64,000 bases of DNA from Subtercola boreus (lineage in GTDB: Bacteria > Actinomycetota > Actinomycetes > Actinomycetales > Microbacteriaceae): the NCBI RefSeq assembly GCF_003399635.1, contig NZ_NBXB01000011.1, forward strand, positions 248,001 through 312,000, read 5' to 3'. This document shows, piece by piece, positions 3,188 to 59,430 of this stretch. Each line of letters begins with the position of its first letter. The first letter of the stretch is position 1. A program made the translations under genes and the position numbers. The notes under the pieces were generated by a model. It had not been told where the DNA came from and searched no databases. It worked only from the letters and a program-made list of their open reading frames with translations.

Positions 3188-3249
3188 CAATTCAGGCTGG
3201 ATGTCCGGCGGAGGCCCATCTGGGCCCCGTGTCGCGCCTGACCTGAATA
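3188..3249. repeat. Intergenic dyad element, class A copy 1 (62 bp)
   Basis: The ends are caattcagg (3188-3196) and cctgaata (3242-3249), with an inner ggccca/tgggcc stem. It lies between the convergent G6PD gene and the hypothetical gene ending at 3291. The same outer ends recur at 15343 and 34047. Confidence 0.65.
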
Positions 3250-3290
3250 AGGACCGGGGTGTGGCGCTTTTCGCCGCGCAGAGCAGTCGG

Positions 3291-3953
3291 TCAGCGGCCG
3301 GCTTCGACCAGGTGGGTGCGGACGGCCGCGACGGGCGCGGGAAGTGCGATCTCGCCGGTCTCGTCGAGAACGGTGAGAGCCGCGGCGAGATCGGCAGAGA
3401 CGGGCACGGCGACGATCGGCGCAAGCGGCGGTGCGAGCGTCGCCGCCGCGGGTGCGAGTTCAGGTGCGGGTGCGGGTGCGGGTGCGGGTGCGCTCAGCGT
3501 TGCGACCGGCACCGAGGTGACAACAAGCGCGGCGTGGTCGGCCTCAACCGCGAAGGGCAGAGCGGCGTGGCTCCCGACGCGAACGTCGACAGGAGCCTCA
3601 GCCGGGGCGACGAGGGGGTGTGCCGGCAGCGCGCGGGTCTCCGCGAACGCCGAGGTGGCGGCCACGAAGGAACCCCCGAGCGGCGCGGGCGCGACCAGCG
3701 GCACGGCCTGGTGGTTGATGAGGGTGCTGACGATGTCATGGGCGACCGAGGAGGCGAGCATCGTGTGGAAGATATCGTCGGTGTCGCTGTTCGCCCGCCG
3801 GGTGATCGCGTAGGAACCCAGGGGGCCGAAGTTCGCGTGGAGCGTCTGGTTCACCAGTTCGTAGAGCCGCTCTGACGACATCGGGCTCTGCACCGCCTGA
3901 GCCTCGAGCCGGGCTCGTTCCGCTCGTGCCTTGCGCCGCCAACCAATCATCAT
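3291..3953 (-). CDS. Conserved hypothetical protein with Ala/Pro-rich middle
   Basis: The 220-residue product starts at ATG 3953, behind a GAGAAGG ribosome-binding site. Residues 1-90 look folded: a charged helix, then a stretch that includes SSERLYELVNQ and NSDTDDIFHTMLAS. Residues 90-190 are rich in Ala, Pro and Val, with a PAPAPAPAP tract encoded by a gcgggt-type microsatellite near 3462-3495. No signal peptide or membrane segment is evident. I do not recognise the family. It is convergent with the G6PD gene. Confidence 0.55.
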   Translation of the reverse strand: MMIGWRRKARAERARLEAQAVQSPMSSERLYELVNQTLHANFGPLGSYAITRRANSDTDDIFHTMLASSVAHDIVSTLINHQAVPLVAPAPLGGSFVAATSAFAETRALPAHPLVAPAEAPVDVRVGSHAALPFAVEADHAALVVTSVPVATLSAPAPAPAPAPELAPAAATLAPPLAPIVAVPVSADLAAALTVLDETGEIALPAPVAAVRTHLVEAGR

Positions 3954-4043
3954 GAGCCCTTCTCACCGCACCGTTCCCCCAAGTGTGGCTGCTCCGCCGC
4001 CCGATCGCCGTCGGGACACGCCGGAAGGCAGGTTCAGGCCCCG

Positions 4044-4238
4044 CTACTTCTCGTTCAGCTCGCGGGCTTCGCGGTCATCCTGCTGCACACTGCCCACGGC
4101 CAGCGCCACGGTGAGGGCCCAGCTGACCCACATGAGCACGAGGCGCCAGTCGCGGGGCCCCCGTCGGGTGGTCTGGATCACGGCGAAGCCGCTCGCGATC
4201 GCGCCGATGATGCTGCTGTTGAAGATGAACTTGCGCAT
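4044..4238 (-). CDS. Small two-helix membrane protein, function unknown
   Basis: The 64-residue protein has hydrophobic segments at about residues 4-20 and 33-50 and a charged C-terminal tail (QQDDREARELNEK). On the coding strand a TAGGTT box ends 6 bases before the ATG, inside the end of the upstream isomerase gene (4248), suggesting its own leaderless transcript as well as read-through. I do not recognise the family. Confidence 0.55.
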   Translation of the reverse strand: MRKFIFNSSIIGAIASGFAVIQTTRRGPRDWRLVLMWVSWALTVALAVGSVQQDDREARELNEK

Positions 4239-4244
4239 GACACC

Positions 4245-4250
4245 AACCTA
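4245..4250 (-). promoter_or_regulatory. -10 box for the 64-residue membrane protein
   Basis: The minus strand reads TAGGTT, then GGTGTC, then the ATG at 4238. The box overlaps the 3' end of the isomerase gene. Confidence 0.35.
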
Positions 4251-5135
4251 CTTGTTCGAGGCGTCCCTTGCCCGAGCCTTGACAGCCTTCCTGTCGGCCT
4301 TCTCGACCTTCTTCTGCGTGCGCTTCTTCAGCGGCTTCGGCGTCTGCTCCCAGGCCTCCTGTCGGCCGAACGCGAGCGTCTCCCTGAGCATCCGGAGCCG
4401 TTCCTCCTCAGTCTTCGCCTTGCGGGTGTTCACCTCGGCGACGACGCTGCCGTCCCAATCGTTCGCCGAGAGGAACGCGAGTACCTCCTGCACCGGCTGC
4501 CCGCCGTACCCCGGCAGGAGGTGTTCGTCGAAGACCCGGCCCTCATCGAGCGAACCCGATCCGTCGCAGAGGTGCACGTGCCGCAGGCGCGGTCCGAGCG
4601 CTTCGGCCATCTCGAGCGAGTCGCGACCCGACAGGGCCGCGTGTGAGAAGTCGAGGGTGACGGCGGCGCAGTCCATCACCACCGGGTCCCAGCCGGGGGA
4701 GTAGGCCGCAAGGCTCGAGCCCTTGACCTTCCAGGGGAACATGTTCTCGACCGCGATCTCGACGCCGTAGGTCTCGGTCGTCTCCTGCACGATGCGGAGG
4801 AAGTTCTCTGCGTACCCCGACTGCCAGCGGAACGGTGGATGCACGACCACCGCGCTCGCACCGACCGCTCTGGCGAGGTCGGCCGACTTCTCGAGCTTCA
4901 CCTTCGGATCCCTGCCCCAGACGAAGTGCGTGAGCAGCAGCACCGGGGCGTGGATCGAGAGGATCGGCATCCCGTACTTCTCGCTGAGAGCGAGCAGGGT
5001 GTCGGGGGACTGGGTGACCTCATCGCGGGTGACCATGACTTCGACGCCGTCATAACCCGCCAGGCTCGCAAAACGGAAGCCCTCTTCGACCCCCAGCGGA
5101 TAGACGCACGAAGTGCTCATGCCGATTCGGATCAT
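4248..5135 (-). CDS. TIM-barrel sugar phosphate isomerase/epimerase
   Basis: The 295-residue protein belongs to the xylose isomerase-like TIM-barrel (AP endonuclease 2) superfamily. Strand-end motifs with likely metal ligands are ILSIHAP (58-64), VVVHPP (96-101), AVENMF (E130), LDFSHA (D162, H165), RHVHLCDG (186-192) and VVAEVN (E234). The last 30 residues (PLKKRTQKKVEKADRK onward) form a basic tail outside the barrel. The substrate cannot be assigned; relatives act on inositols, ketohexoses or sugar phosphates. It is divergent from otsA. The minus strand has TATCGT 7 bases before the ATG. Confidence 0.8.
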   Translation of the reverse strand: MIRIGMSTSCVYPLGVEEGFRFASLAGYDGVEVMVTRDEVTQSPDTLLALSEKYGMPILSIHAPVLLLTHFVWGRDPKVKLEKSADLARAVGASAVVVHPPFRWQSGYAENFLRIVQETTETYGVEIAVENMFPWKVKGSSLAAYSPGWDPVVMDCAAVTLDFSHAALSGRDSLEMAEALGPRLRHVHLCDGSGSLDEGRVFDEHLLPGYGGQPVQEVLAFLSANDWDGSVVAEVNTRKAKTEEERLRMLRETLAFGRQEAWEQTPKPLKKRTQKKVEKADRKAVKARARDASNK

Positions 5136-5142
5136 GGGGCTG

Positions 5143-5148
5143 ACGATA
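5143..5148 (-). promoter_or_regulatory. -10 box for the sugar isomerase
   Basis: TATCGT on the minus strand ends 7 bases before the ATG at 5135, and no ribosome-binding site is visible between them. Confidence 0.4.
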
Positions 5149-5210
5149 GTCGCCCGACCTGAACACTGCGCCAGTTCTCGGCGATCCTCCGCGAAATTTG
5201 TGGCGGCTGG

Positions 5211-5216
5211 TACCGT
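5211..5216 (+). promoter_or_regulatory. -10 box for otsA
   Basis: TACCGT ends 5 bases before the otsA ATG at 5222, again leaving no room for a leader. Confidence 0.4.
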
Positions 5217-5221
5217 AAAGA

Positions 5222-6952
5222 ATGACCGCCCGCGGGCATCCTCCCGCCGACAATCGAACGGATCCTGTCATCTCCTCTGCCAGCGCATCGGCGCGAACCG
5301 GCCAGTACGACCTCGTCGTGGTCTCCAATCGACTGCCTGTCGACAAAGTGATCGCCGACGACGGCACCGAGACCTGGCGCGGCTCGCCCGGGGGCCTCGT
5401 CACGGCGCTCGAACCGATCATGCGTGCCAGCGAAGGCGCCTGGGTCGGCTGGGCGGGGGTCGCCGACGACGCTTCGGAACCCTTCGAACACGACGGCATC
5501 TCGATCGTCCCCGTGACACTCAGTGCCGACGAGGTCGAGCTCTACTACGAAGGTTTCTCGAACGACACCCTCTGGCCGCTCTACCACGACGTGATCGCCC
5601 CGCCCACGTACCACCGGGACTGGTGGGAGTCGTACCTCGAGGTGAACCAGCGATTCGCGGATGCGGCGGCCACCGCGGCCGCCGACGGGGCCACGGTGTG
5701 GGTGCAGGACTACCAGCTGCAGCTCGTTCCGAAAATGCTGCGGGAGATCCGCCCCGACCTCGTGATCGGCTTCTTCAATCACATTCCGTTTCCGGCATAC
5801 GGGATCTTCTCGCAGCTGCCATGGCGCACCCAGATCATCGAGGGCCTGCTCGGGGCCGATGTCATCGGCTTCCAGCGAGTGGCGGATGCCGGCAACTTCA
5901 GCCGCGCGGTGCGCCGCCTCCTGGGGTTCTCGACCAAGGGCACCACCATCGAGGTGCCGATCGTGGACGCCGCCGAGGTCGAGGGTCGACCGAACCGCAC
6001 GCGCGTCTCCCGCCGGGGGCACCACGTGCGAACGGTCACGGCCCGCGCGTTCCCGATCTCCATCGACACCGAGAGTTTCGTCGAACTCGCCCACCGGCCC
6101 GACGTGCAGGCCCGCGCGAAGGAGATCCGGCAGGAGCTCGGAAATCCCGACGTGGTGATGCTCGGCGTCGACAGGCTCGATTACACCAAGGGCATCGGCC
6201 ACCGGCTGAAGGCCTACGGCGAGCTGCTCGAAGACGGCAAGATCGACGTCGCGCACGCCAGTCTCATCCAGGTGGCCAGCCCCAGCCGCGAGCGGGTCAA
6301 GACGTACATGCAGCTCAGGGATGAGATCGAACTCACCGTCGGGCGGATCAACGGCGACTTCTCGACCATCAGCCATTCGGCGATCAGCTACTTGCACCAG
6401 GGCCGGCCCCGCGAGGAGATGGCGGCGCTCTACCTCGCCGCCGACATCATGCTCGTCACGGCCCTCCGCGACGGTATGAACCTGGTCGCGAAGGAGTATG
6501 TCGCCTCCCGGTTCGACAATGGCGGCGTGCTGGTGCTGAGCGAGTTCGCGGGAGCCGCCGACGAGCTGAAGCAGGCGCTGCTCGTCAACCCGCACGACAT
6601 CCATGGCCTGAAGGAGGCGATCATGAAGGCGATCGCCATGCCGCAGAGTGAGAGATCCCGGCGCATGCGCGCCCTCCGCAAGCGGGTGATCGAGTTCGAT
6701 GTCGCGAGATGGTCGAAGTCCTTCCTCGACGAGCTCGCCGATCTGACGCACGCCCGGAGCGCGAGCGAGGCCTCCGATGCGGCCGACGCTCTGTCTGACG
6801 CGGCCGACGACGAGGCCAAGGCCAACGCGTCGTCGAGTGTGCGAACGGCCCGCACGGCCCAACCGGATGCCCGGGCGAATCCGACTGGCACCGAGAATCC
6901 GACCGGCACCGTGAATCCAGTCGGCGCCGAAGCGGGTGAACCCCAGAAGTGA
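5222..6952 (+). CDS. otsA: Alpha,alpha-trehalose-phosphate synthase (UDP/GDP-glucose)
   Basis: The 576-residue GT20 enzyme joins NDP-glucose and glucose 6-phosphate to form trehalose 6-phosphate in the cytoplasm. Diagnostic blocks are VVSNRLP (33-39), DWWESY, WVQDYQLQLVP, FFNHIPFP, DRLDYTKGIGHRLKAY, LRDGMNLVAKEY and LSEFAGAADEL. After about residue 490 the catalytic fold ends and a low-complexity tail follows: Ala/Ser/Asp-rich, then NPTGT-type repeats. Typical OtsA proteins are 470-500 residues, so the tail is an addition. The stop overlaps the otsB start (GTGA at 6949-6952), indicating a translationally coupled operon. Confidence 0.95.
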   Translation: MTARGHPPADNRTDPVISSASASARTGQYDLVVVSNRLPVDKVIADDGTETWRGSPGGLVTALEPIMRASEGAWVGWAGVADDASEPFEHDGISIVPVTLSADEVELYYEGFSNDTLWPLYHDVIAPPTYHRDWWESYLEVNQRFADAAATAAADGATVWVQDYQLQLVPKMLREIRPDLVIGFFNHIPFPAYGIFSQLPWRTQIIEGLLGADVIGFQRVADAGNFSRAVRRLLGFSTKGTTIEVPIVDAAEVEGRPNRTRVSRRGHHVRTVTARAFPISIDTESFVELAHRPDVQARAKEIRQELGNPDVVMLGVDRLDYTKGIGHRLKAYGELLEDGKIDVAHASLIQVASPSRERVKTYMQLRDEIELTVGRINGDFSTISHSAISYLHQGRPREEMAALYLAADIMLVTALRDGMNLVAKEYVASRFDNGGVLVLSEFAGAADELKQALLVNPHDIHGLKEAIMKAIAMPQSERSRRMRALRKRVIEFDVARWSKSFLDELADLTHARSASEASDAADALSDAADDEAKANASSSVRTARTAQPDARANPTGTENPTGTVNPVGAEAGEPQK

Positions 6953-7764
6953 GCGGCATCATCGACGCAGAGACCGACGAACTCGTCGCGAAGCTCACGG
7001 AGCTCGCCGAGACCCGGCAGTTGCTCATCGCCCTCGACTTCGACGGCACGCTGGCGCCCGAAGTGGATGACCCCCAGCACGCTCGCGCCCTGCCCGAGGC
7101 CCGCGCCGCGGTGCTGAGACTGCTCGCCCTCCCCGCCACGCGGGTCGCCCTCATCTCGGGCCGCGCCATGGAGAGCCTCGAGCACGTGGCGAACCTGCCG
7201 GATTCCGTGCTGCTGGTCGGGTCGCACGGCGTCGAGTTCCGGCTCGACACCCCCGACGCGACGGTCGACCTCGACACGGCCGAGCTCGAACAGGTGGATG
7301 TGCTGAGCGAGCTGCTCGAAGACGTCGCGGCGGGCCTCGACCAGGTCTGGATCGAGCCGAAGCCCGCGGGCTTCGCCCTGCACACCCGGCTCGCGACCGA
7401 GCGGGACTCCCGCATCGCCCACCTTCAGGCGCTCAGCGAGACCCGCGCGGAGATCGCCGGGCTCACCGTTCGCGAAGGCAAGAACGTTCTCGAGTTCTCG
7501 GTGCGGAGCGCTACGAAGGGTGAGGCCCTGCTGCACCTGAAGGAGTACGCCAAGGCGACGGCTGTGCTCTACGCGGGCGACGACGTCACCGACGAGGATG
7601 CCTTCGCGGTGCTCGACTCGCGCGACTTCGGGTTGAAGAGCGGGCCGGGAAAGACGATCGCCGAGTTCCGGGTGGCCGATCCGCGCGAGGTGGCCGGCGT
7701 GCTCACGCTGCTCGCCGACCTGCGGGCGAAGGCGTTCGAGTCCGGTGCGCCCGGCCGGGCCTGA
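6949..7764 (+). CDS. otsB: Trehalose-6-phosphate phosphatase
   Basis: The 271-residue HAD-family phosphatase removes the phosphate from the OtsA product to give trehalose. The nucleophile motif LDFDGTLAP is at about 29-37. ALISGRAMESL is HAD motif II, and YAGDDVTDEDAF near 204-215 is the metal-binding motif III/IV. The GTG start overlaps the otsA stop by four bases, which fixes the start. After the stop the same frame stays open to 8018, encoding what looks like a gene remnant. Confidence 0.94.
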   Translation: MSGIIDAETDELVAKLTELAETRQLLIALDFDGTLAPEVDDPQHARALPEARAAVLRLLALPATRVALISGRAMESLEHVANLPDSVLLVGSHGVEFRLDTPDATVDLDTAELEQVDVLSELLEDVAAGLDQVWIEPKPAGFALHTRLATERDSRIAHLQALSETRAEIAGLTVREGKNVLEFSVRSATKGEALLHLKEYAKATAVLYAGDDVTDEDAFAVLDSRDFGLKSGPGKTIAEFRVADPREVAGVLTLLADLRAKAFESGAPGRA

Positions 7765-7769
7765 TCCGC

Positions 7770-7814
7770 GACGCTGCCTGGTCCGAGACACTGCCTGATC
7801 GCAATACTGCCCGA
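7770..7814. repeat. Three imperfect 16-17 bp tandem repeats
   Basis: The units gacgctgcctggtc, gacactgcctgatc and aatactgcccgatc follow one another between otsB and ilvD. Confidence 0.6.
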
Positions 7815-7994
7815 TCCGCGCACGGCACTCGGCATCGACGGGCTCCCCGCCGCGGTGCTCCTCGGAACGGATCGGAGAGTCGCCGCAGGCCCCGTGCTCG
7901 GGCCCGACGAGATCGAAGCCCTGGTCGGCGGTATCGGCGAGGCGCTGGCCCAGAACGGCTGGGCCGACCGCCAAAAAGTGCTCGTTCGAGGTTC

Positions 7995-8000
7995 TAAACT
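7995..8000 (+). promoter_or_regulatory. -10 box for ilvD
   Basis: TAAACT ends 6 bases before the ilvD ATG (8007), with no Shine-Dalgarno sequence, so ilvD is probably leaderless. Confidence 0.5.
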
Positions 8001-8006
8001 CGTAAC

Positions 8007-9701
8007 ATGCCCGAAATAGACATGAAGCCGCGTTCGCGCGTCGTCACCGACGGAATCGAAGCCACGACCTCACGCGGAATGCTCCGTGCGGTCGGTATGG
8101 GCGACGCCGACTGGGACAAGCCGCAGATCGGCATTGCGAGCTCATGGAACGAGATCACCCCCTGCAACCTGTCGCTCGACAGGCTCGCGCAGGCCTCCAA
8201 GGAGGGTGTGCACTCGGGCGGGGGATACCCCCTGCAGTTCGGCACCATCTCCGTCTCCGACGGCATCTCGATGGGCCACGAGGGCATGCACTTCTCGCTC
8301 GTCTCGCGTGAGGTCATCGCCGACAGCGTCGAGACCGTCATGCAGGCCGAGCGCCTCGACGGCAGCGTGTTGCTGGCCGGCTGCGACAAGTCGCTGCCCG
8401 GCATGCTGATGGCCGCGGCCCGCCTCGACCTCGCGAGCGTGTTCCTCTACGCCGGCTCGATCGCGCCGGGCTGGGTCAAGCTCAGCGACGGCACCGAGAA
8501 GGACATCACGATCATCGACTCCTTCGAGGCCGTCGGCGGCGTCAAGGCCGGCACGATGAGCGTCGAGGATGCCAAGCGCATCGAGTGCGCCTTTGCCCCG
8601 GGCGAGGGTGCCTGCGGAGGCATGTACACCGCCAACACGATGGCCTCCGTCGCCGAGGCCCTCGGCATGAGCCTGCCGGGCAGCGCGTCGCCGGCATCGG
8701 CCGACCGCCGCCGCGACTTCTTCGCGCACCGCTCGGGCGAGGCCGTCGTGAACATGCTTCGCCTGGGCATCACGACCCGCGACATCCTCACCAAAGACGC
8801 GTTCGAGAACGCGATCGCCGTCGCCATGGCCCTCGGTGGATCGACAAACGTCATCCTGCACCTGCTCGCGATCGCCTACGAGGCCGAGGTCGACCTCACG
8901 ATCGACGACTTCAACCGCATCGGTGATACGATCCCGCATCTCGCCGACATGAAGCCGTTCGGCAAATATGTGATGAACGACCTCGACCGGCAGGGCGGAC
9001 TCCCGGTGCTGATGAAGGCGCTGCTGGATGCCGGACTGATGCACGGCGACGCGCTCACCGTCACGGGCAAGACCCTCGCCGAGAATCTCGCGGAGATCAA
9101 TCCGCCGACGCTCGACGGCAAGGTGCTCCGCACGCTCGACAACCCGATCCACCCCACGGGCGGCCTCACCGTGTTGAAGGGCACGCTGGCCCCCGAGGGC
9201 GGCGTCGTCAAGACCGCCGGATTCGACGCGAGTGTGTTCGAGGGCCCCGCGAAGGTCTTCGAGCGTGAGCGCGCGGCGATGGATGCGCTCACCAACGGTG
9301 AGATCCAGCACGGCGACGTGGTGGTCATCCGCTACGAGGGTCCGAAGGGCGGCCCCGGCATGCGGGAGATGCTCGCGATCACCGCGGCCATCAAGGGCGC
9401 CGGGCTCGGCAAAGATGTACTACTCTTGACAGACGGCAGATTCTCAGGCGGCACAACCGGCCTGTGTATCGGCCACATAGCACCCGAAGCGGTCGACGCA
9501 GGTCCGATTGCCTTCGTGCGCGATGGTGATCTGATTCGGGTCGATATCGCAGCTCGCTCGCTCGACCTACTCGTCGAACCCGCAGAGCTCGCAGCCCGCC
9601 GTGACGGCTGGGCTCCGCTCCCCCCGCGCTATACCCGTGGCGTCCTGGCCAAATACTCGAAGCTCGTGCATTCAGCTGCAGAAGGCGCGATCACCGGGTA
9701 A
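8007..9701 (+). CDS. ilvD: Dihydroxy-acid dehydratase
   Basis: The 564-residue enzyme dehydrates 2,3-dihydroxy acids to 2-keto acids, the third step of valine/isoleucine synthesis. Fe-S ligand candidates are C53 (TPCN), C126 (AGCDKSLPG) and C203 ([12 protein letters not shown]), the three-cysteine pattern of the family. [10 protein letters not shown] near residues 476-485 is the conserved C-terminal active-site loop. From about base 9410 onward codon choice shifts (TAC-TAC-TCT-TTG-like runs, GAT, ATT, GCA), unlike the first 470 codons, although the protein stays canonical. It lies upstream of ilvB with a 75-bp gap. Confidence 0.96.
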
Positions 9702-9776
9702 GGCACCTCCGTCCGGTCCAACCGCCCCCGTCTCCGGGCGCACAGGCCGGTCACCATCGTCAAAGGATCCCCTCTT

Positions 9777-11612: not shown

Positions 11613-11616
11613 ACCC

Positions 11617-12123
11617 GTGAGCCACGTCCTGTCACTGCTTGTCGAAGACAAACCGGGTCTGCTGACCCGCGTCGCCGGCCTGTTCGCCCGCCGCGGCTTC
11701 AACATCGAGTCTCTCGCGGTCGGTGCGAGCGAGATCGAGGGTCTCTCCCGCATCACCGTTGTCGTCGACGTCGAGGAACTGCCGCTCGAGCAGGTCACCA
11801 AGCAGCTCAACAAGCTCGTCAACGTGATCAAGATCGTCGAGCTCGACCCCAACCAGTCGGTGCAGCGCGAACACCTCCTCATCAAGGTGAAGGTCGACAA
11901 CGTCACCCGGTCGCAGGTGCTCGAAGCGGTCACGCTCTTCAGGGCGCGGGTTGTGGATGTCGCGACCGATGCCCTCGTCATCGAGGTCACCGGCGACAGT
12001 GGCAAGACCACCGCGTTCCTCCGTGTGCTCGAGCCGTACGGCATCAAGGAGATGGCCCAGTCGGGCCTCCTCGCGATCGGCCGCGGCAGCAAGTCGATCA
12101 CCGAGCGCGTCTATAAAAATTGA
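11617..12123 (+). CDS. ilvN: Acetolactate synthase, regulatory small subunit
   Basis: The 168-residue protein has an N-terminal ACT domain (residues 2-75, beginning SHVLSLLVEDKPGLLTRVAGLF) and the ALS_ss_C domain in the second half. It binds valine and confers feedback inhibition on IlvB. The GTG start lies 4 bases behind ilvB, so the two subunits are coupled. A GC-rich hairpin follows at 12143-12161 before ilvC. Confidence 0.96.
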   Translation: MSHVLSLLVEDKPGLLTRVAGLFARRGFNIESLAVGASEIEGLSRITVVVDVEELPLEQVTKQLNKLVNVIKIVELDPNQSVQREHLLIKVKVDNVTRSQVLEAVTLFRARVVDVATDALVIEVTGDSGKTTAFLRVLEPYGIKEMAQSGLLAIGRGSKSITERVYKN

Positions 12124-12140
12124 CTGCTCGAAAGAACTGA

Positions 12141-13420
<1,280 letters not shown>

Positions 13421-13623
13421 GAACGCGGCGGGTGCCCTCAACGGGCATCCGTTCCCGACGCGGCGGAGCCCTCGCGCCGCAAGCGCACGCCGCCCCCGGT
13501 TGCGGGTTTCGGACCCCCCCACCCCGTGTGGCGGGGGATCCGTCGTTGTTGGGGTACGCAGAGCGCCCTTGTCCGACGCTCCGCCGTGGGCCAGCCCTTC
13601 GTCGCGTCTCATTGGTGCGCGCT

Positions 13624-13683
13624 ACGGAATGCGCTGGAGCAATCCATCTCGTATGCGCCGACGATCGACCCAGCGCATTCCGT
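13624..13683. repeat. Intergenic dyad element (60 bp)
   Basis: The outer arms acggaatgcgctgg (13624-13637) and ccagcgcattccgt (13670-13683) are perfect 14-bp complements. Pairing continues imperfectly towards the centre. It lies between ilvC and the convergent frameshifted gene at 13715. Confidence 0.7.
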
Positions 13684-13714
13684 GGGCCGCTCCGGCGGGC
13701 GGCCTCGGCGGGGG

Positions 13715-14091: not shown

Positions 14092-14097
14092 GCCGCC

Positions 14098-14103
14098 ATC
14101 CTA
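14098..14103 (-). promoter_or_regulatory. -10 box of the frameshifted gene
   Basis: TAGGAT on the minus strand ends 6 bases before the ATG at 14091. This supports that ATG as the ancestral start. Confidence 0.35.
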
Positions 14104-14199
14104 GTGACGGCGAGCCCGTCGACCACGGGCTCCGCGCGACGGGCGCGCGACGGGTGCGTGATGGCGCGCGGGTTTGTGGGCGGGAGTCGGGGCTGCCGG

Positions 14200-14205: not shown

Positions 14206-14211
14206 GGAACC

Positions 14212-14895: not shown

Positions 14896-14899
14896 ACCT

Positions 14900-15331: not shown

Positions 15332-15342
15332 GCCTCCGCCCA

Positions 15343-15405
15343 CAATTCAGGAGAGAGGCGCCGCCAGCCCGCATTCCGACGCGGCGACCCACTATGCCTG
15401 AATTG
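15343..15405. repeat. Intergenic dyad element, class A copy 2 (63 bp)
   Basis: The ends caattcagg and cctgaattg are perfect 9-bp complements, with an inner gcgccgc/gcggcg stem. The core gcattccgacgcggc is nearly repeated in the copy at 34047. It lies between convergent genes. Confidence 0.75.
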
Positions 15406-22916: not shown

Positions 22917-22984
22917 GTTCCGCGCACGTTTGTCGCTTCCGCGCCTGCGCGCGCATCGGCGTAAGCGACAAACCGTAGCGGAAC
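22917..22984. repeat. Intergenic dyad element (68 bp, 34+34)
   Basis: The whole element folds on itself: gttccgc...tttgtcgctt at 22917-22938 faces aagcgacaaa...gcggaac at 22963-22984, with about 26 of 34 positions paired and no loop. It lies between the convergent FAH and VOC genes. Confidence 0.75.
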
Positions 22985-27135: not shown

Positions 27136-27180
27136 CTCTAGCTGTAGCTGTAGCTGTAGCTGTAGCTGTAGCTGTAGCTC
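27133..27180. repeat. Hexanucleotide microsatellite (tagctg/tagctc, 8 units)
   Basis: One tagctc, six perfect tagctg and a final tagctc run from the stop codon of the FAD oxidoreductase. Copy number changes here would not alter the protein. The rest of the 27181-27463 gap holds the dyad at 27246 and the ribosome-binding site of the VOC gene. Confidence 0.85.
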
Positions 27181-27245
27181 CAGCCTCCGCCTGGCGGCCT
27201 GACCGCGACAGCTGTCCTGCACGCCGCTCCCGCCGAATGCACCGC

Positions 27246-27314
27246 CGGAACGGACACGGTTCCAGTAATCCGCCGCCGTATCTGGCGAGGATACGCAGAA
27301 TGGTGTCCGTTCCG
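27246..27314. repeat. Intergenic dyad element (69 bp)
   Basis: Perfect 12-bp outer arms, cggaacggacac (27246-27257) and gtgtccgttccg (27303-27314), have imperfect pairing inside. It lies between two co-directional genes. Confidence 0.7.
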
Positions 27315-34046: not shown

Positions 34047-34109
34047 CAATTCAGGCGTAGCGTGCCGGCAGGCAGCATCTCGACGCGGCATGGTTCCTGT
34101 CCTGAGTTG
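34047..34109. repeat. Intergenic dyad element, class A copy 3 (63 bp)
   Basis: The ends are caattcagg and cctgagttg, with core gcatctcgacgcggc almost identical to the copy at 15343. It lies in the 33980-34316 gap between convergent genes; the rest of the gap shows no gene. Confidence 0.75.
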
Positions 34110-42770: not shown

Positions 42771-42832
42771 GTGAGACAGTTGCGGACACGTGAGACTCAT
42801 GTGCGAGTCTCACGTGTCCGCAGCTGTCTCAC
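42771..42832. repeat. Intergenic dyad element, near-perfect (62 bp)
   Basis: Two 28-bp arms (starting gtgagacagttgcggacac) pair with a single mismatch around a 6-base loop (atgtgc). It lies between the convergent SDR remnant and the Eis gene. It is the most stable hairpin in the window. Confidence 0.9.
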
Positions 42833-46220: not shown

Positions 46221-46277
46221 CGAGAGGACGCAAAATGCGGCCCCGGCGCCGTCATTCCCGCAGATTGCGTCCTCTCG
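46221..46277. repeat. Intergenic dyad element, class D copy 1 (57 bp)
   Basis: The arms cgagaggacgcaa and ttgcgtcctctcg are perfect 13-bp complements, extending to about 20 bp with two mismatches. It shares aggacgcaaa and attcccgcag with the copy at 59355. It lies between divergent genes. Confidence 0.75.
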
Positions 46278-46428: not shown

Positions 46429-46701
46429 GTGCTGAACGGGAATCCCACGCTTTCTGACATCGACCTGCCCGCCGACCTCGACGCCCGGGTCGACTTCTGG
46501 ACGAACCACCGCAAGTACACCCTGCTGCACCACCGGCAGGACACCTGGTGCCTCTTCGCCGTCGAGAAATCGAGGCCGCAGATGACGCATGTGTTGGATG
46601 CCCGCGGCACGGAGTGGGTGGCGTCGCCGATCGATCTCGGCGGCGGCCGCGCCGTGCACGCGCCGGACTGGCGGGGCGCCCTCCGCCGCGTCGTCGTCTG
46701 A
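46429..46701 (+). CDS. Conserved hypothetical protein, 90 residues
   Basis: A soluble small protein read from GTG 46429. It contains LPADLDARVDFWTNHRKYTL and DTWCLFAVEKSRPQMTHVLD. It has the length and composition of a single-domain alpha/beta protein. I recognise no family. It is convergent with kdpE, with a 67-bp dyad in the gap. Confidence 0.55.
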   Translation: MLNGNPTLSDIDLPADLDARVDFWTNHRKYTLLHHRQDTWCLFAVEKSRPQMTHVLDARGTEWVASPIDLGGGRAVHAPDWRGALRRVVV

Positions 46702-46770
46702 TCCGCAGCCCTGTCGTCGCCCGGGCGCGCCGCGGGCCCCTCACCGGCGGCCAGAGCCCGATCCCGACAC

Positions 46771-46837
46771 CGAATCGGCGGCCACAGGCCGATCCGACGC
46801 GAGGAGCACGGCGGATCAGCCGAGGGCCGCCGATTCG
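46771..46837. repeat. Intergenic dyad element (67 bp)
   Basis: The arms (cgaatcggcggcc... and ...ggccgccgattcg) pair over 29 bp with five mismatches and a 9-base loop. It lies between the convergent 90-residue gene and kdpE. Confidence 0.8.
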
Positions 46838-46841
46838 GCGA

Positions 46842-50164: not shown

Positions 50165-50176
50165 CCGGTGCGTCGC

Positions 50177-50827: not shown

Positions 50828-50838
50828 GATGGGCCTTT

Positions 50839-53001
<2,163 letters not shown>

Positions 53002-53006
53002 GAGTG

Positions 53007-54680
53007 TTACTGCAGCCCTTCGGCGAGCGGCCCGAGCGTGATGACCGGGAAGTAGGTGAGCGCGGTGATGATGACGGTGACGCCGACCAGCAGCCCGATG
53101 AACTGCGGGCGGTGGGTGGGCAGCGTGCCGGCGGTGGCGGGGATCTTGTCCTGGGCGGCGAGCGAGCCGGCGAGGGCCAGCACGAGCACGATCGGCAGGA
53201 ACCGGCCGAGCAGCATGGCGACGCCGAGCGCGGTGTTCAGCCAGGGGGTGTTCGCGGTGATGCCGGCGAAGGCCGATCCGTTGTTGTTCGCCGCGGAGGT
53301 GAACGCGTAGAGCACCTCGCTGAGGCCGTGCACGCCCGGGTTCCAGATCGACGTGGTCGTCACGTCGTCACGGATGCCCGGAATCGCGAAGCTCGCGGCG
53401 ATGCCGAGCAGCACGATCGTCGGCGTGACGAGGATGTAGAGGCTCGCCAGCTTGATCTCCCGCGGCCCGAGCTTCTTACCGAGGTACTCGGGCGTACGGC
53501 CCACCAGGAGACCGGCGATGAAGACGGCGATCACGGCGAGGATCAGCATTCCGTAGAGACCCGATCCGACGCCTCCCGGGGCGACCTCGCCGAGCATCAT
53601 GTTCAGCATCGGCATCATGCCGCCGAGGGCGGTGAACGAGTCGTGCATCGAGTTGACGGCGCCCGTCGAGGTGAGCGTGGAGGTCGTGGCGAACAGCGTC
53701 GATCCGAAGATCCCGAACCGGTCCTCTTTGCCTTCCATCGCCGAGCCCGCCGCCTGCGCGGCGGAACCGGCACCCGAGCTCTCGAAGAGCGTCAGGGCGG
53801 TGAACGACACGACGAAGATGGTCGACATGACCGCCAGGATCGCGTAACCCTGGCGGTTGTCGCCGACCATGCGGCCGAAGGTGCGGGGCAGGCTGAACGG
53901 GATGGCGAGCATCAGCACGATCTCGATCAGGTTCGTCCAGGCGGTCGGGTTCTCGAACGGATGCGACGAGTTCGCGTTGAAGAAGCCGCCACCGTTCGTG
54001 CCGAGCATCTTGATGGCCTCCTGCGAGGCGACCGGCCCGCCCGGGATCGACTGCGTGCCACCGGTGAGGGTGGTTACGTCGGTGAAGCCGTTGAAGTTCT
54101 GGATGACGCCGCCGGCGATGAGGACGATCGCGGTGAGGATCGCGAACGGAAGGAGCAGACGGAGGATGCCGCGGGTGAGGTCGACCCAGAAGTTGCCGAT
54201 CGTGCCCTCACGACGGCGGGCGAAGCCGCGCACCAGCGCGATGGCGACAGCGATGCCGACGGCGGCAGACACGAAGTTCTGCACGGCGAGGCCGGCCAGC
54301 TGCACGCTGTAGCCCATCGTCACGTCGGGGGAGTACGACTGCCAGTTCGTGTTGGTGACGAACGAGATCGCCGTGTTGAAGCTCAGGCCCTCGGGGATGG
54401 CGGGCATGCCGAGCGACTGGGGCAGCACCGCCTGCAGGCGCTGGATGGCATACAGGATGAGCACGCCGACGAGGGAGAACGCGAGCACGCTCCGGAGGTA
54501 GGCGCGCCAGGTCTGCTCGCTCTGGGAGTCGACCCCGATGACGCGGTAGAAGCCGCGTTCGACGCGGAGGTCTCGCTTCCCGGTGTAGATCATGGCCATG
54601 TAGTCGCCGAGCGGGCGGTGGATGAGCACGAGCAGAAGCACCAGGGAGGCGACCTGGAGGATGGCGAGGAAAGTGTCCAT
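53007..54680 (-). CDS. kdpA: Potassium-transporting ATPase, KdpA channel subunit
   Basis: The 557-residue SKT-superfamily membrane protein has about ten helices. The selectivity-filter loops are recognisable in [52 protein letters not shown] and [14 protein letters not shown], each holding a filter glycine. It conducts K+ into the complex. The start is ATG 54680, 6 bases after the kdpF stop. Confidence 0.96.
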
Positions 54681-54686
54681 GGGGGG

Positions 54687-54776
54687 TTAGAAACGCTCCG
54701 GTTTCACGAGGGCGTACACGAGGTAGCCGAGGGCGGCGACGGCGAGGACAGCCGCGATGATGCTGAAGACGATCAC
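54687..54776 (-). CDS. kdpF: Potassium-transporting ATPase, KdpF subunit
   Basis: This 29-residue single-helix peptide reads VIVFSIIAAVLAVAALGYLV then YALVKPERF; KPERF is the KdpF end. It stabilises the complex at the membrane. The GTG start at 54776 overlaps the stop of a 31-residue ORF by four bases. It is too short for routine ORF calling. Confidence 0.88.
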   Translation of the reverse strand: MIVFSIIAAVLAVAALGYLVYALVKPERF

Positions 54777-54868
54777 AGTTTCTCGACCCCCCTGGCCACG
54801 AGGGCAACGATCGCGAACAGCACGATGATGCCGGCTACGTAAAAGACGTCAAGCACGGGAGGCTCCAT
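54773..54868 (-). CDS. 31-residue membrane peptide heading the kdp operon
   Basis: The ATG at 54868 opens MEPPVLDVFYVAGIIVLFAI, then VALVARGVEKL, and stops at 54773 overlapping kdpF (GTGA). It has one membrane helix with a short acidic N-terminus and a basic C-terminus, the same size as KdpF but a different sequence. Coupling to kdpF implies a role in the Kdp complex or its assembly. I know of no function for it. Confidence 0.65.
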   Translation of the reverse strand: MEPPVLDVFYVAGIIVLFAIVALVARGVEKL

Positions 54869-54955
54869 CCGGGTGGTGGTGATGTGAGGTGGTGGCAGGA
54901 CTGCTACAGCACACGATTAGACACCTCGGAATGCGTCGTCTTCACGCTCTTCACG

Positions 54956-54989
54956 GTTCCCTAACGCTCCGGAGCGGGATCCTTACGCT
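54956..54989 (-). promoter_or_regulatory. Direct repeats upstream of kdp, possible KdpE site
   Basis: On the minus strand, AGCGTAAGGATC and AGCGTTAGGGAAC lie 21-22 bases apart, about two helical turns, roughly 90-120 bp before the first kdp ATG. This spacing suits a dimeric response regulator. The assignment is inference. Confidence 0.35.
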
Positions 54990-55100
54990 TCTCCTACGCC
55001 ACGGCAGAATTGCCCCGTCGACGGCGGGCTGCGGGCGGCGCGGCGCGCCTGTTCTACGCTCTGTAGACTGACCACCGGCGGACGATCTGCGGGAGGCCCC

Positions 55101-55742
55101 ATGAGCGACAGGATGGCGCGCACACTGCGCGGCCTCGTCGCGGCCTGCTTCGCGACCTTCGTCGCCGCCTTCTCGCACGTCGCCGTCGGTGGAACCGCCC
55201 CCGGCATCGTCGGCCTCGCACTCGGGATCGCCTTCGCGGTGCTGGCCTGTGTCGCTCTGGCCGGCCGCACGCTCTCCGTGCTGAGGATCAGCGTCGCCGT
55301 CGGCCTCAGCCAGCTCGTGTTCCACCTCGTGTTCAGCCTCGGCGGGCCGTCGGCCACGACCGCGGTGATGTCGGGCCACCACGGGGGCGCGGTGTCTTTC
55401 GTCACCGACTCCTCTGCGTCGCTGGCTGGCGGCGGCAGCGTCTCCATGGCCGGCGACGCTCTGATGCAGGGCCACTCGTGGATGTGGGCGGCGCACGCTG
55501 CGGCCGCGCTCCTCACCGTGCTGGCGCTCGTGCGCGGGGAGTCGAGCGTCCGCGGGCTCATCCGGAGTGCGACGCTCCGGCTCAGGATGCTCGTTGCCCT
55601 GCCTTTCGCCGAACCCCGCCCGGCGGGCGCCTCCGTCGAAGGGCGCATCCTGCCGGAGCCCTCGCACCTCCGCGATCTCGGCGTCTTCCTCGGTGCGATG
55701 CGGCACCGGGGGCCGCCGGCCCTGATCCCCGCCCCGGCCTGA
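55101..55742 (+). CDS. Membrane protein next to ycnI, possible copper-linked role
   Basis: The 213-residue product starts at ATG 55101 behind GGGAGG. It has hydrophobic segments at about 8-28, 33-53, 62-80 and 122-142, with a His/Met-containing exterior loop (SGHHGG, MAGDALMQGHSWMWAAHAA). The gene precedes ycnI in the same direction with an 82-bp gap. Loop residues and neighbour hint at copper handling, but I recognise no named family. Confidence 0.6.
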   Translation: MSDRMARTLRGLVAACFATFVAAFSHVAVGGTAPGIVGLALGIAFAVLACVALAGRTLSVLRISVAVGLSQLVFHLVFSLGGPSATTAVMSGHHGGAVSFVTDSSASLAGGGSVSMAGDALMQGHSWMWAAHAAAALLTVLALVRGESSVRGLIRSATLRLRMLVALPFAEPRPAGASVEGRILPEPSHLRDLGVFLGAMRHRGPPALIPAPA

Positions 55743-55824
55743 CGCTCCGCTTCGTGCGTTCGGTGTCGGTGGCGGTCTTTCTCACACCTGTTTCTTCACC
55801 CCCACCGTCAAGGACACCTTCACC

Positions 55825-56550
55825 ATGCAGAAACGCACCCTCATCCGCTACGCCACCGCTCTCACCGCGGCCGGCCTGCTCGCCCTCACCGCACCGCTCT
55901 CGGCCAGCGCGCACGTCAGGGTCACCCCCGACCAGGCCGTCGCCGGCAGCTACTCCACGCTCACCTTCAAGGTTCCGACCGAGTCGGCGACGGCATCCAC
56001 CACCAAGCTCGAAGTCGACCTGCCGACCAACACCCCGTTCGGCAGCGTCTCCTACCAGCCCCTCCCGGGCTGGAGCGTCGAGGTCATCACCTCGACCCTG
56101 CCGACCCCGGTCGTGACCGACGACGGAACCGTGACGGAGGCTCCCACGAAGATCGTGTGGACGGCAGACGCCGGCTCGGCCGTCTCACCGGGCGCCTTCC
56201 AGGTGTTCTCGATCTCGGCGGGCCCCGTTCCCGACACGGGCAGCATCGTGCTGCCGGCCCACCAGACGTACTCCGACGGGAGTGTCGTCGACTGGACAGA
56301 GGCGACACCGGCGTCGGGCGTGGAGCCGGAGTCGCCGGCCCCGACGCTCTACATCAACGACGCGCCGCCGGCCGAGACGGGTGCGGCAGGGGCGTCGGTG
56401 TCGGCGACCTCCGTGCCCACAACCGACGCGGCATCCGGCAGCACCGTGGCCATCGCGACCGGTGTCGGCATCGGCGGGCTCGCGGTCGGCGCGATCGCCC
56501 TCGTCGTGGCCGTCGTGGCGCTGACCCGCAAGCGCCCCGCCGGCCGGTAG
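55825..56550 (+). CDS. YcnI-like copper-associated exported protein (DUF1775)
   Basis: The 241-residue protein has a signal peptide (1-29, LLALTAPLSASA) and a mature end starting His30 (HVRVTPDQAVAGSYSTLTFK). The N-terminal histidine binds Cu(II) in YcnI relatives. The cupredoxin-like DUF1775 domain runs to about 165. After a Thr/Ser linker, a C-terminal helix (AIATGVGIGGLAVGAIALVV) and basic tail anchor it to the membrane. It probably takes part in copper delivery or tolerance. Confidence 0.87.
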   Translation: MQKRTLIRYATALTAAGLLALTAPLSASAHVRVTPDQAVAGSYSTLTFKVPTESATASTTKLEVDLPTNTPFGSVSYQPLPGWSVEVITSTLPTPVVTDDGTVTEAPTKIVWTADAGSAVSPGAFQVFSISAGPVPDTGSIVLPAHQTYSDGSVVDWTEATPASGVEPESPAPTLYINDAPPAETGAAGASVSATSVPTTDAASGSTVAIATGVGIGGLAVGAIALVVAVVALTRKRPAGR

Positions 56551-56658
56551 CCGCCCGACTCCCGACGCACCACGGTGAGCGGGCGTGCATCCCTCGACGC
56601 CCGCGCACCCTGCGCGCCCCTCTGTGAATCCGTACCCCGGTTCGGGAAGAAGGACCCG

Positions 56659-57349
56659 CGTGACCCACCGCGCCGACCCCGAGTTCCCCGAACAGCGACA
56701 CCTCACCTTCACCACCCACATGATCCAGCACAGGGGCTGATGATGTTCGTGCCTCCGCTGCTCGTGCTGGGGGCGCCGATCCTGCTCGCCCTCCGTGCCC
56801 TGCCGAAGCGGCACGACCACAGCAGAGGGCTTCGCGAATGGATGCTCGTCGTCGTGCACTCCCGGTTCTTCAAGGTGATCTCCTTTCCCGCACGTCTTCA
56901 TGTGCCTGCACTTCCTGGCCACCGGGTACCTGTTCTTCTGGGTGATCATCGGAGTCGACCCCGGACCCCAGCGGCCGAGCTACCCGCTCCGCATCATCCT
57001 GCTGCTGGCGACGCTGGCCTTCCACGCCTTCTTCGGGCTCGCCATCATGTCGTCGGACACGATCTTCGCCATCGACTGGTGGCACGCCCTCGGCTACACC
57101 GACGACGCGGCCCTCCTCGCCGACCAGCACGTCGGCGGCGGCATCGCCTGGGGCGCGGGGGAGCTGCCGGTGCTCTTCGTGACGCTCGCCGTCGTGCGGC
57201 AGTGGATCACCTCGGAGGAACGCGAGGCGAAACGCTACGACCGGAACGCCGCACGCACCGGCGATGCCGAGCTGCTCGCGTACAACGAGCGCCTCAGCAT
57301 CCTTGCGGCGCGGGACCGCGAGCGTGACGTCGAGCGCGACGTGTCCTGA
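56659..57349 (+). pseudogene. Broken CtaG (Caa3-type cytochrome oxidase assembly) gene
   Basis: Three pieces of one membrane protein lie in order in different frames. Piece 1 (56659-56739) ends HLTFTTHMIQHRG-stop. Piece 2 (56740-56890) reads MMFVPPLLVLGAPILLALRA up to FFKVISFP. Piece 3 (56891-57349) reads HVFMCLHFLATGYLFFWVII to RERDVERDVS. Together they match the HMIQHM...MMF and HxxFxxxHFLxTGxLFFW pattern of CtaG_Caa3. A one-base loss after MIQH, an internal deletion of about 30 codons and loss of the N-terminal helices make it nonfunctional. It sits behind the ycnI gene, a normal copper/oxidase context. Confidence 0.78.
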
Positions 57350-57450
57350 GGCGACGACCACCTTTCCGGCCCGTGTCGATTTCGCCGCAAGCCGTTCGAC
57401 GTCATAGTAGGAGGACGCATACTGCGGCCCGCACCGAAACGGAGAACCCC

Positions 57451-57876
57451 ATGAAGTACATGCTGATTATGCGAGCGACGGACGAAGCCAAGGCCGCCTA
57501 CGAGCAGGTCGACTTCGCTCAGGTCATCGAGAAGATGGGCGCCTACAACGAGACGCTCATCAAGGCGGGCGTGCTGCTCGCCGGCGAGGGTCTCGCCGAC
57601 AGCATGGCCGACAATTTCGTCGTCGACTTCGCTGGTGAGACCCCCGTCGTGACCGATGGTCCGTACGGCGAGACCCACGAACTGTTCAGCGGTTTCTGGA
57701 TCCTGGAGGTCGGCTCGAAGGAAGAGGCCGCGGCGTGGGCGTCCCGGGCACCACTCGGCGAGGGCTCGAAGCTCGAGGTGCGCCGGGTGACCGACATGAG
57801 CGACTTCGCCGAGTTCGCCGACACCGACGCGATGAAGAACGAGGCGGCCTGGCGCGAAGTGAACGGCCAGGCCTGA
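57451..57876 (+). CDS. DGPF (YCII-related) protein, partner of the ECF sigma factor
   Basis: The 141-residue product starts at ATG 57451. It contains KYMLIMRATDEAKAAYEQVD, then VVTDGPYGETHELFSGFWIL, in which TDGPYGE is the DGPF motif, with helices between. Genes of this family are typically linked to ECF42 sigma factors, as here, where the sigma gene starts 4 bases later. Their role is not established. Confidence 0.87.
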   Translation: MKYMLIMRATDEAKAAYEQVDFAQVIEKMGAYNETLIKAGVLLAGEGLADSMADNFVVDFAGETPVVTDGPYGETHELFSGFWILEVGSKEEAAAWASRAPLGEGSKLEVRRVTDMSDFAEFADTDAMKNEAAWREVNGQA

Positions 57877-57879
57877 ACC

Positions 57880-59301
57880 ATGCCGCGGGCTGAGGCGCGG
57901 CCGGCGGCCGGCGGGGCCGTGGATGCCGCAGCCGCGACCGCCGCCGCACAGCCAGCGCCCGGCGGCCCCGTCGACGCTGCTGCTGCCTCTTCCGCTGCCG
58001 CTGCCGCCGCGGCCCGCACGATCGATGCCGTGTGGCGCATCGAGAGCGCCCACATCGTGGGAACCCTCGCCCGCCTCACCGGCGACATCGGGCTCGCCGA
58101 AGACCTCGCGCATGAGGCAGTGGTCGACGCACTGTCCCAGTGGCCGGCGGCGGGCATCCCCGTGAATCCCGCCGCCTGGCTCACAGCGGTAGCGAAGCGC
58201 AAGGCGATCGACAGCTGGCGCCGACGGGAACGGTTGGATGACCGCTACCAGGCGATCGCCCACGACCTCCGTTCCGGGACCACTGCCGCATCCGGCGTCG
58301 CAACCGGTGCCGGTGCTGGCGGCGATCCCTCCGCTGGTGATCCGGCCGACGATCCCGCGTGGCAGCCGATCGGCGACGACGTGCTGCGCCTCGTCTTCAC
58401 CGCCTGCCACCCCGTGCTCGGGCGTGAGGCGCAGATCGCCTTGACCCTCCGCCTCGTCGGCGGTCTCACGACAGCGGAGATCGCGCGGCTGTTCCTCGTG
58501 CCGGTCGCGACCGTGCAGGCGCGCATCACCCGCGCCAAGAAGACCCTCTCGGCGGCACGGGTACCGTTCGAGGTTCCCGATCAGAGCGAATGGAAAGAGC
58601 GCCTCGGCTCGGTGCTCACCGTGCTGTACCTCATCTTCAGCGAAGGATATGCGGCGACATCCGGAGAGCACTGGATGCGCGTCGACCTCGCCAACGAGGC
58701 CCTCCGCCTCGGCCGTGTGCTCGCCGGTCTCGTGCCTCGGGAGCCCGAGGTACTGGCCCTCCTCGCGCTGATGGAACTGCAGGCCTCGCGCTTCGGGTCG
58801 CGGGTTCGCCGGGACGGCACTCCGGTGCTGCTCGCCGACCAGGACCGCGGCCGCTGGGACCGCACCCAGATCACACGGGGTCGGGCTGCGCTGGCGCGGT
58901 CGGATGCCCTCGGCCGGAGTCGTGGCAGCTACGCCCTGCAGGCCGCCATCGCTGAGTGCCACGCCACGGCGCCGAGCGTCTCCGACACGGACTGGTCCGG
59001 AATCGTGCTGCTGTACGAGGCGCTCGGGCAGCTCGCCCCGAACCCGGTTGTCGAGCTGAACCGCGCGGTCGCGGTCTCGATGGCGACCGGACCGGCGTCC
59101 GCGCTGCTGATCGTCGACGGGCTCGCCCGGGCCGGGGCGCTTGCCGGTTCGCATCTGCTGCCGAGCGTGCGCGGCGAGCTCCTCTCCCAGCTCGGACGCA
59201 CCGACGAGGCCCACGCAGAGCTCACCGCGGCGGCGGCGCTCGCCACCAACACGCGCGAGCGCGCCGTCCTCCTGGCGAAGGCCGCCGCTCTCGCCCCCTG
59301 A
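57880..59301 (+). CDS. ECF sigma factor of the ECF42 group with TPR-like C-terminus
   Basis: The 473-residue protein has an Ala/Pro-rich leader (1-48), sigma region 2 (RIESAHIVGTLARLTGDIGL, then AEDLAHEAVVDALSQWP), region 4 (ALTLRLVGGLTTAEIARLFL onward, VATVQARITRAKKTL) and a C-terminal helical domain of about 220 residues (SDTDWSGIVLLYEALGQLAP then NPVVELNRAVAVSM) that replaces an anti-sigma factor. The order with the DGPF gene is the known ECF42 arrangement. An Ala/Gly insert (TAASGVATGAGAGG) separates regions 2 and 4. Confidence 0.9.
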   Translation: MPRAEARPAAGGAVDAAAATAAAQPAPGGPVDAAAASSAAAAAAARTIDAVWRIESAHIVGTLARLTGDIGLAEDLAHEAVVDALSQWPAAGIPVNPAAWLTAVAKRKAIDSWRRRERLDDRYQAIAHDLRSGTTAASGVATGAGAGGDPSAGDPADDPAWQPIGDDVLRLVFTACHPVLGREAQIALTLRLVGGLTTAEIARLFLVPVATVQARITRAKKTLSAARVPFEVPDQSEWKERLGSVLTVLYLIFSEGYAATSGEHWMRVDLANEALRLGRVLAGLVPREPEVLALLALMELQASRFGSRVRRDGTPVLLADQDRGRWDRTQITRGRAALARSDALGRSRGSYALQAAIAECHATAPSVSDTDWSGIVLLYEALGQLAPNPVVELNRAVAVSMATGPASALLIVDGLARAGALAGSHLLPSVRGELLSQLGRTDEAHAELTAAAALATNTRERAVLLAKAAALAP

Positions 59302-59354
59302 CCCCTCCCGCCCCTCGCCCTCGCCCCACCCCCACGCCCCCCACCCCCCACCCG

Positions 59355-59430
59355 CGAACCGAATCGATAGGACGCAAACTGCTGCACCAGCGCGGTATTC
59401 CCGCAGTTCGGGTCCCATCGAATCCGTTCG
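59355..59430. repeat. Intergenic dyad element, class D copy 2 (76 bp)
   Basis: The arms start cgaaccgaatcgataggacg and pair over 28 bp with five mismatches around a 20-base centre. It shares aggacgcaaa and attcccgcag with the copy at 46221. It lies between co-directional genes; the rest of 59302-59583 shows only a GGGGGGAGA ribosome-binding site. Confidence 0.75.

Follow-up and report, generated by a model that had tools for sequence, protein, structure and literature searches.

A 64,000-nucleotide stretch of the Subtercola boreus genome (contig NZ_NBXB01000011.1, positions 248,001 to 312,000; hereafter the window) contains ten intergenic dyads, most of them between convergent genes. The dyads belong to several classes of dispersed extragenic palindromes and are not mainly terminators. 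They are probably non-autonomous members of palindromic repeat families that multiply within the genome, each family served by a nuclease gene of its own. Because several of the element families match the repeats that bracket a gene resembling homing endonucleases in the same genome, the arrangement suggests a mobile repeat and nuclease system with an unrelated enzyme that resembles the pairing of REPINs (REP doublets forming hairpins; REP, repetitive extragenic palindrome) with the REP-associated tyrosine transposase RAYT. We infer that the nuclease mobilises the elements.

An earlier note on this DNA had described the ten dyads, and most of its description holds. On re-measurement they span 57–76 bp and start at, or at most 1 bp from, the positions it gave. 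Among the outer 8 positions of each dyad 7 or 8 are paired; pairing over the whole length is weak in the elements at 3189 (15/30) and 34048 (12/30). Our gene calls come from a simple home-made program, which overlooks some nuclease genes. They give ten convergent gaps in the window; the seven that exceed 100 bp hold one element each. The remaining three elements lie in a divergent gap (46221) and in co-directional gaps (27246 and 59355); the divergent status of the 46221 gap depends on the open reading frame at 46429–46701, which is weak. No element lies inside a called gene, and inspection of the flanks by eye on both strands finds no T-run right after the hairpin at any of the ten. The statement that most arm sequences are unrelated needs correcting: three of the ten share the arm AATTCAGG (class A), and two are B-type.

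Clustering by arm, a check that the note had proposed, gives repeated classes with near-fixed lengths. In the genome of the window (G000), 31 copies carry AATTCAGG arms, which are exact because the search pattern demands it, and all are 61 bp long even though any total length of 36–66 bp was allowed; the reversed pattern gives 0. In a 782-kb sample of the same genome, 14 of the 20 class A copies of 61 bp have exact arms. Copy number is lineage-specific: of the 12 genomes from the genus, one more, G002, contains exact class A copies (three, all of 61 bp), and the remaining 10 have 0. Class H (CGGGAGGAGC) occurs 13 times in G003, 5 times in G001, 4 times in G000 and in none of the nine others, and 21 of the 22 copies are 59 bp long (reversed-pattern control, 0). 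The first three boxes of class F are found in 33 places, all 33 with identical spacing where gaps of 4–20 were allowed, again with a reversed control of 0. Within class A the most conserved interior positions are G13, G15 and CGCC (19–22). Positions 9–12 and 14 vary and yet remain paired in 14–21 of the 31 copies, compared to 8.6–13.5 expected, a covariation that might come from template switching inside quasi-palindromes instead of selection; the centre pairs no more than expected. The mean folding energy of class A is –31.5 kcal/mol, compared to –24.2 kcal/mol with the interior shuffled. An uptake sequence was considered and rejected: AATTCAGG occurs 37 times in the 782 kb where 6.6 are expected, but 28 of these are the arms of the 14 exact pairs. 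Six of the other occurrences lie between genes, several of them visibly decayed copies, and three lie in genes.

An all-against-all comparison of the proteins encoded next to elements reveals a recurring nuclease-like protein, and in several genomes its gene sits between two elements that belong to a single class. For class A the bracketed gene was predicted beforehand and then found at G000:C34:125779-126657; the AATTCAGG elements on its two sides are 61 bp long each, with 2 and 1 mismatches in their arms. We searched 12 genomes of the genus, which by inference is Subtercola, with two alignments and scored 61 loci, leaving out short fragments. At a bracket score of at least 17, 11/20 group I loci and 22/31 group II loci are bracketed (33/51 together), as are 3/10 loci of a weak group, one of which, C34:101440, passes on a GC-rich pair while its F element was read by eye. 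When left and right flanks were swapped between genomes, 2.2% of 548 trials reached 17, and only 2/1158 other genes of at least 450 bp from three genomes did so. At a score of at least 18 the counts are 5/20 and 21/31 for the two groups and 0/1158 for other genes. This scoring replaced an early test (16/44 PF04480 loci against 0.67 expected), which missed cases. The unit of element, gene and element measures 1080–1220 bp in 27/33 cases, typically ~1.15 kb, and once it is removed, the genes on either side are convergent at 27 of 47 assessable loci.

The nuclease superfamily corresponds to the Pfam families DUF559/MTES_1575, which have a Vsr-like fold. DUF559 matches 12/13 group I and 12/12 group II members, and MTES_1575 matches below its curated cut-off in the members listed singly. 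AbiEi_4 matches 5/13 group I members and, within Pfam, none of group II. Two proteins have no match in NCBIfam. In PADLOC, AbiEi models match the class A protein, a second protein gets two weak models (one of them a homing endonuclease) and a third gets none; phage records gave one match. The AlphaFold2 model built for the class A protein, which belongs to group I, has a predicted local distance difference test (pLDDT) score of 83.6. With domains assigned from alignment lengths and a profile search, its N-terminal part resembles the AbiEi antitoxin 6y8q and, weakly, Rv2827c (1zel). The C-terminal part resembles the catalytic domain of I-Bth0305I, 3r3p (probability 1.00, template modelling score 0.75 by target), and also 3hrl and Vsr 1cw0. 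A profile search of solved structures likewise places 3r3p first (E 0.0034, profile residues 205–263). The AbiEi-like fold is known for operator binding, and I-Bth0305I is of the EDxHD type. A D, E, D, H, D motif is invariant in both alignments (13 and 12 members), and these residues are presumed to be catalytic.

The brackets connect these genes to the dispersed families. For six window elements the family brackets a G000 nuclease gene on both sides, and for two (classes C and F) on one side only. The two-sided G000 brackets belong to classes A (C34), B (C29:131224), B2 (C24), D2 (C29:28911), E (C15), H' (C11) and M (C42). Class F stands on both sides of G002:C24:229143, and the 59355 element resembles the brackets of the nuclease gene G001:C1:1311571 in a relative. 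Counting both brackets of a locus and keeping bracket loci inside the panel, which weakens the comparison, the bracket arms of G000 have 96.1 copies per Mb in G000, 28.5 in G003 and 20.0 in G001; those of G003 have 54.4 in G003 compared to 8.5 and 12.5 in the other two, and those of G001 have 25.0 in G001 compared to 9.7 and 15.5. With some exceptions, bracket arms are most abundant in the genome they come from. Arm similarity rises with the identity of the nuclease proteins (Spearman 0.46, for pairs that are not independent). At the class A locus of G003, which has the same upstream flank, the arms read AAAGAGG (A', by eye) and protein identity is 53%; AAAGAGG elements occur in G003 at three gaps where G000 has class A, intact or decayed. 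Four arm versions occur for the H locus, from three species with the gene in the same position and from a further related gene; identity to the G000 gene is 53–56%.

Comparison of orthologous gaps between G000 and G003 (median protein identity 96.3%) shows turnover of the elements. The two genomes share class C elements and some of the short symmetrical hairpins. For classes A, B, D, E, H and M, most elements are found in just one of the species, or another class occupies the gap. One gap holds a 61-bp element in each species; in 11/30 arm pairs these two differ on both sides yet still pair. Downstream of ilvC an ordinary terminator, recognized by eye, is conserved in four species; the dyad that follows it varies or is absent. 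The nuclease genes also differ in number between genomes, and some carry stops or are fragmented. Decayed copies at G000:C15:39005-39919, G011:C93:26316-26951 and G005:C1:3448697-3449296 show a stop codon, internal loss and fragments, which fits gain and loss of units.

The preference for convergent gaps extends beyond the window. In the 782-kb sample of G000 (about 1/5 of 3.85 Mb), gaps of 60–500 bp were searched for dyads of 54–85 bp and compared with 40 dinucleotide shuffles. Dyads occur in 31/58 convergent gaps (shuffle mean 4.75, maximum 8), in 21/199 co-directional gaps (4.7 expected) and in 5/90 divergent gaps (2.5 expected). Two relatives, sampled over 386 and 400 kb, have them in 10/26 and 9/22 convergent gaps (1.5 and 2.5 expected), in 9/105 and 11/90 co-directional gaps (2.3 and 3.95 expected) and in 0/43 and 0/51 divergent gaps. 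Enrichment in convergent gaps over shuffled sequence, the test that the earlier note had called for, is therefore strong in all three genomes sampled; in co-directional gaps it is about three- to fourfold, and in divergent gaps slight or absent. The claim of one element in every sizeable convergent gap holds in the window; beyond it, about half of the G000 convergent gaps of this size carry one. The location rule is real but not absolute. In fetched loci 65 places were read, a few of them chance matches from other phyla: 33 lie in convergent gaps, 18 in co-directional and 4 in divergent ones, 5 are inside a called gene, and the setting of 5 is undecided.

Brackets also occur outside the genus. 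In Agreia the nuclease gene lies between two 61-bp AATTCAGG elements, and in G120, from another genus of the family, between elements of 85 and 84 bp. Across the family, the pattern AATTCAGG-N30-60-CCTGAATT is found in 55/299 genomes and 28/85 genera, with 268 matches summed from the table and a control of 0; among the matches listed, interior and length vary by genus, with ~61 or 73–75 bp common. An order-level scan gives matches in 2/198 genomes, both of the same family as the window genome, and in 0/184 genomes of other families. Seven relatives of the nuclease are on named plasmids, six of which were read. Brackets scoring at least 19 are present on Tsukamurella NZ_LR134454.1 (62/62) and on Arthrobacter NZ_AP024649.1 (57/57) and NZ_CP012477.1 (63/65). 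In 72,556 plasmid records the Arthrobacter StoSoilB13 bracket is found in 12 places including its own, all on two replicons of StoSoilB13. The Arthrobacter ERGS1:01 bracket is found in 14 places in its own record, and 16 further records match; outside its own record no place covers 80% of the query. Additional copies of either bracket are all but confined to the strain it was taken from.

The earlier note had offered a bidirectional terminator without a U-tract, or a REP-like family with several sequence classes, as the identity of the dyads. That U-tract-less bidirectional terminators or protectors of mRNA 3' ends are the primary function, the families being favoured terminator designs, would fit the strong enrichment in convergent gaps, the stable folding of class A and the retention of class C at the same gap in several species. 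We nevertheless consider this explanation unlikely. A plain terminator is disfavoured because the elements turn over and the ilvC terminator is conserved beside a changing dyad. Dyads do not clearly replace T-tailed hairpins either, which occur in 6/31 convergent gaps with a dyad and 8/27 without one in the 782-kb sample, and the fixed length, the nuclease brackets and the association of arms with nuclease genes would be left unexplained. The elements may also have a secondary role as 3'-end hairpins that serve both convergent transcripts. It is similarly improbable that the nuclease is a regulator or a defence or repair enzyme whose binding sites happen to be dispersed and whose elements are immobile. 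The AbiEi-like N-terminus of group I and the resemblance to Vsr agree with such an enzyme; the appearance and disappearance of whole 57–62 bp palindromes at orthologous gaps, the lineage-specific copy number and the variable, partly broken set of nuclease genes do not.

The REP-like alternative stands insofar as the dyads are dispersed palindromes of several classes. Classic REPs or REPINs moved by a RAYT (Y1) transposase, or miniature inverted-repeat transposable elements of a resident DDE insertion sequence, are very improbable as their identity. Like REPINs as outlined in the consulted part of PMC3116915, the dyads combine two inverted half-sites in one extragenic hairpin and come in several classes per genome. 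The RAYT family PF01797 is found in 0/12 genomes, compared to 5/14 controls, in a search that did not extend to DDE transposases. The 18 class A copies inspected by eye with 12-nt flanks have no consistent GTAG/CGTC foot, and the bracketed gene encodes a nuclease of another fold.

Several observations weigh against a nuclease-mobilised repeat. At the threshold of 17, 18/51 group I and II loci and 7/10 weak loci lack a matched bracket; the G003 A' and D brackets were recognized by eye and score 11.0 and 13.0 automatically. The nuclease gene of G209 has no bracket. The plasmid NZ_AP024648.1 (56/56) stays below the threshold with a score of 16, as do two Tsukamurella plasmids with no convincing pair (15.0 and 13.5). 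Class C stands on one side only of the nuclease-like gene G000:C41:94031 and class F, by eye, on one side only of G000:C34:101440, and class I (27246) has no partner gene in the genomes searched. Class E arms (4 and 11 matches) barely exceed the reversed control (6 and 4). The G003 stretch has more copies of the G000 M arms (3, compared to 0–1 in G000) and D2 arms (1, compared to 0), and the bracket arms of three G001 loci are absent from the G001 stretch. At the orthologous gaps, which are too diverged to fix the element borders and often differ in length by more than an element, we saw neither excision nor a target-site duplication nor a clean empty site. Something other than transposition could also make the elements follow the nuclease.

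If the nuclease does mobilise the repeats, its N-terminal part, AbiEi-like in group I, would bind the arms, and the Vsr-like part would nick or cut at the hairpin or palindrome. Repair or rejoining of the break would then place a copy of the hairpin at a new site, in the manner proposed for RAYT and REPINs. Surviving copies would pile up at the 3' ends of genes because insertion there is least harmful; such survival may reflect least harm, a benefit as a 3'-end hairpin, or both.

Among known systems, REPINs are closest in architecture and GTAG/CGTC-tagged REPs in location, as far as the consulted parts of the sources go; the dyads belong to neither, since there is no RAYT and no tag is seen in class A. 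A preference of hairpins for convergent gaps is reported for all bacteria studied in PMC1590033. REPINs are described as short extragenic hairpins of two inverted half-sites with conserved ends and a less conserved middle, in several families per genome (PMC3116915, in part), and a gene bracketed by copies of one REP family is also on record (PMC3733652, in part). Both features, in many copies, are found here. The enzyme differs, being a nuclease with a Vsr-like fold and not a Y1 HUH transposase, and so do the lack of a visible GTAG foot in class A, the near-fixed family length and the host phylum, Actinomycetota. CGTC-tagged REPs are 20–40 bp long, lie mostly between convergent or co-directional genes and have no dedicated transposase reported in the part of PMC3733652 consulted. 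The dyads share the dispersal and the location; they differ in length (57–76 bp), in showing no CGTC tag in class A and in having a partner gene. On the protein side, the modelled C-terminal domain shares the fold and the D/E/D/H/D residues of I-Bth0305I (3r3p); the partner nuclease adds an N-terminal part, and its bracketing palindromes also occur alone. The N-terminal fold of the class A product is like that of the AbiEi antitoxin (6y8q), in line with the PADLOC matches, but here it is fused to a nuclease domain, and group II has no AbiEi match in Pfam.

To our knowledge, Actinobacteria commonly have genes whose only name is "DUF559" or "AbiEi family antitoxin domain" and for which no role is known. 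They now gain a testable one, as partners of dispersed hairpin families. The chances seem about even that this is an undescribed class of bacterial mobile element, in which a Vsr/EDxHD-fold nuclease with a DNA-binding part mobilises ~60-bp palindromes and specificity and arms co-evolve, renewing the arms in each lineage across Actinomycetota. It would mean that the REPIN problem, the persistence of tiny non-coding repeats, has been solved a second time with an unrelated enzyme, would give a natural set of nuclease–target pairs for specificity studies and would account for many of the hairpins in the convergent gaps of these genomes. Among the papers listed by searches of an open-access library, titles and abstract openings show no link between DUF559 and palindromic repeats.

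The three class A elements of the window are all 61 bp long and lie in convergent gaps: 3189–3249 (1 arm mismatch), whose partner gene at C34 lies outside the window, 15344–15404 (exact arms), not found in the matching G003 gap, and 34048–34108 (1 arm mismatch, weakly paired interior). The class H' element at 13625–13682 (CGGAATGC arms, 58 bp) is in the convergent gap downstream of ilvC, past the ordinary terminator seen by eye, and its partner gene, G000:C11:318334-319281, lies ~6 kb to the right of the window. The class C element at 22917–22984 (44-bp core TTTGTCGC, 68 bp overall) occupies a convergent gap; related elements are present at the matching gap in G003, in G002 and also in G001, where a further gene follows. 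Class I is represented at 27246–27314 (CGGAACGGACA arms, 69 bp) in a co-directional gap, with a similar element in G002 (by eye), and class F at 42771–42832 (GTGAGAC-N12-GTGAGAC-N10-GTCTCAC-N12-GTCTCAC, 62 bp) in a convergent gap. The class B2 element at 46221–46277 (CGAGAGGACGCA arms, 57 bp) lies in the divergent gap and has its partner at G000:C24:18069-19091. In the neighbouring convergent gap, the class E element at 46770–46838 (ATCGGCGGCC arms, a 61-bp core in 69 bp) has its partner in the decayed gene at C15, which has one in-frame stop. The B-type element at 59355–59430 (CGATAGGACGCAAACTGC arms, 76 bp) lies in a co-directional gap.

Other genera can hold AATTCAGG elements at far higher density: stretches picked for being dense contain seven exact pairs of 72–85 bp in 40 kb (G120, L174-L175) and four of 64–75 bp with several near copies in 35 kb (G209, L176-L177). 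A single 688-bp convergent gap of G015 holds three 74-bp AATTCAGG elements (L179, 8428–9008). A near-perfect 61-bp palindrome with AATTCAGG ends and an unrelated interior lies in a convergent gap of Duganella flavida (L102:6977-7037); it is probably due to chance and possibly belongs to another system. Downstream of ilvC, the window at 13245–13714 also contains units of the form "CTTCGGTGCCGCT...GGTGCGCCGGCC", a separate repeat family that is present in the matching gap of G003, G007 and G006 too and in some species adjoins the ordinary terminator. A run of CTGTAG hexamers at ~27136–27190 directly follows the upstream gene's stop codon.

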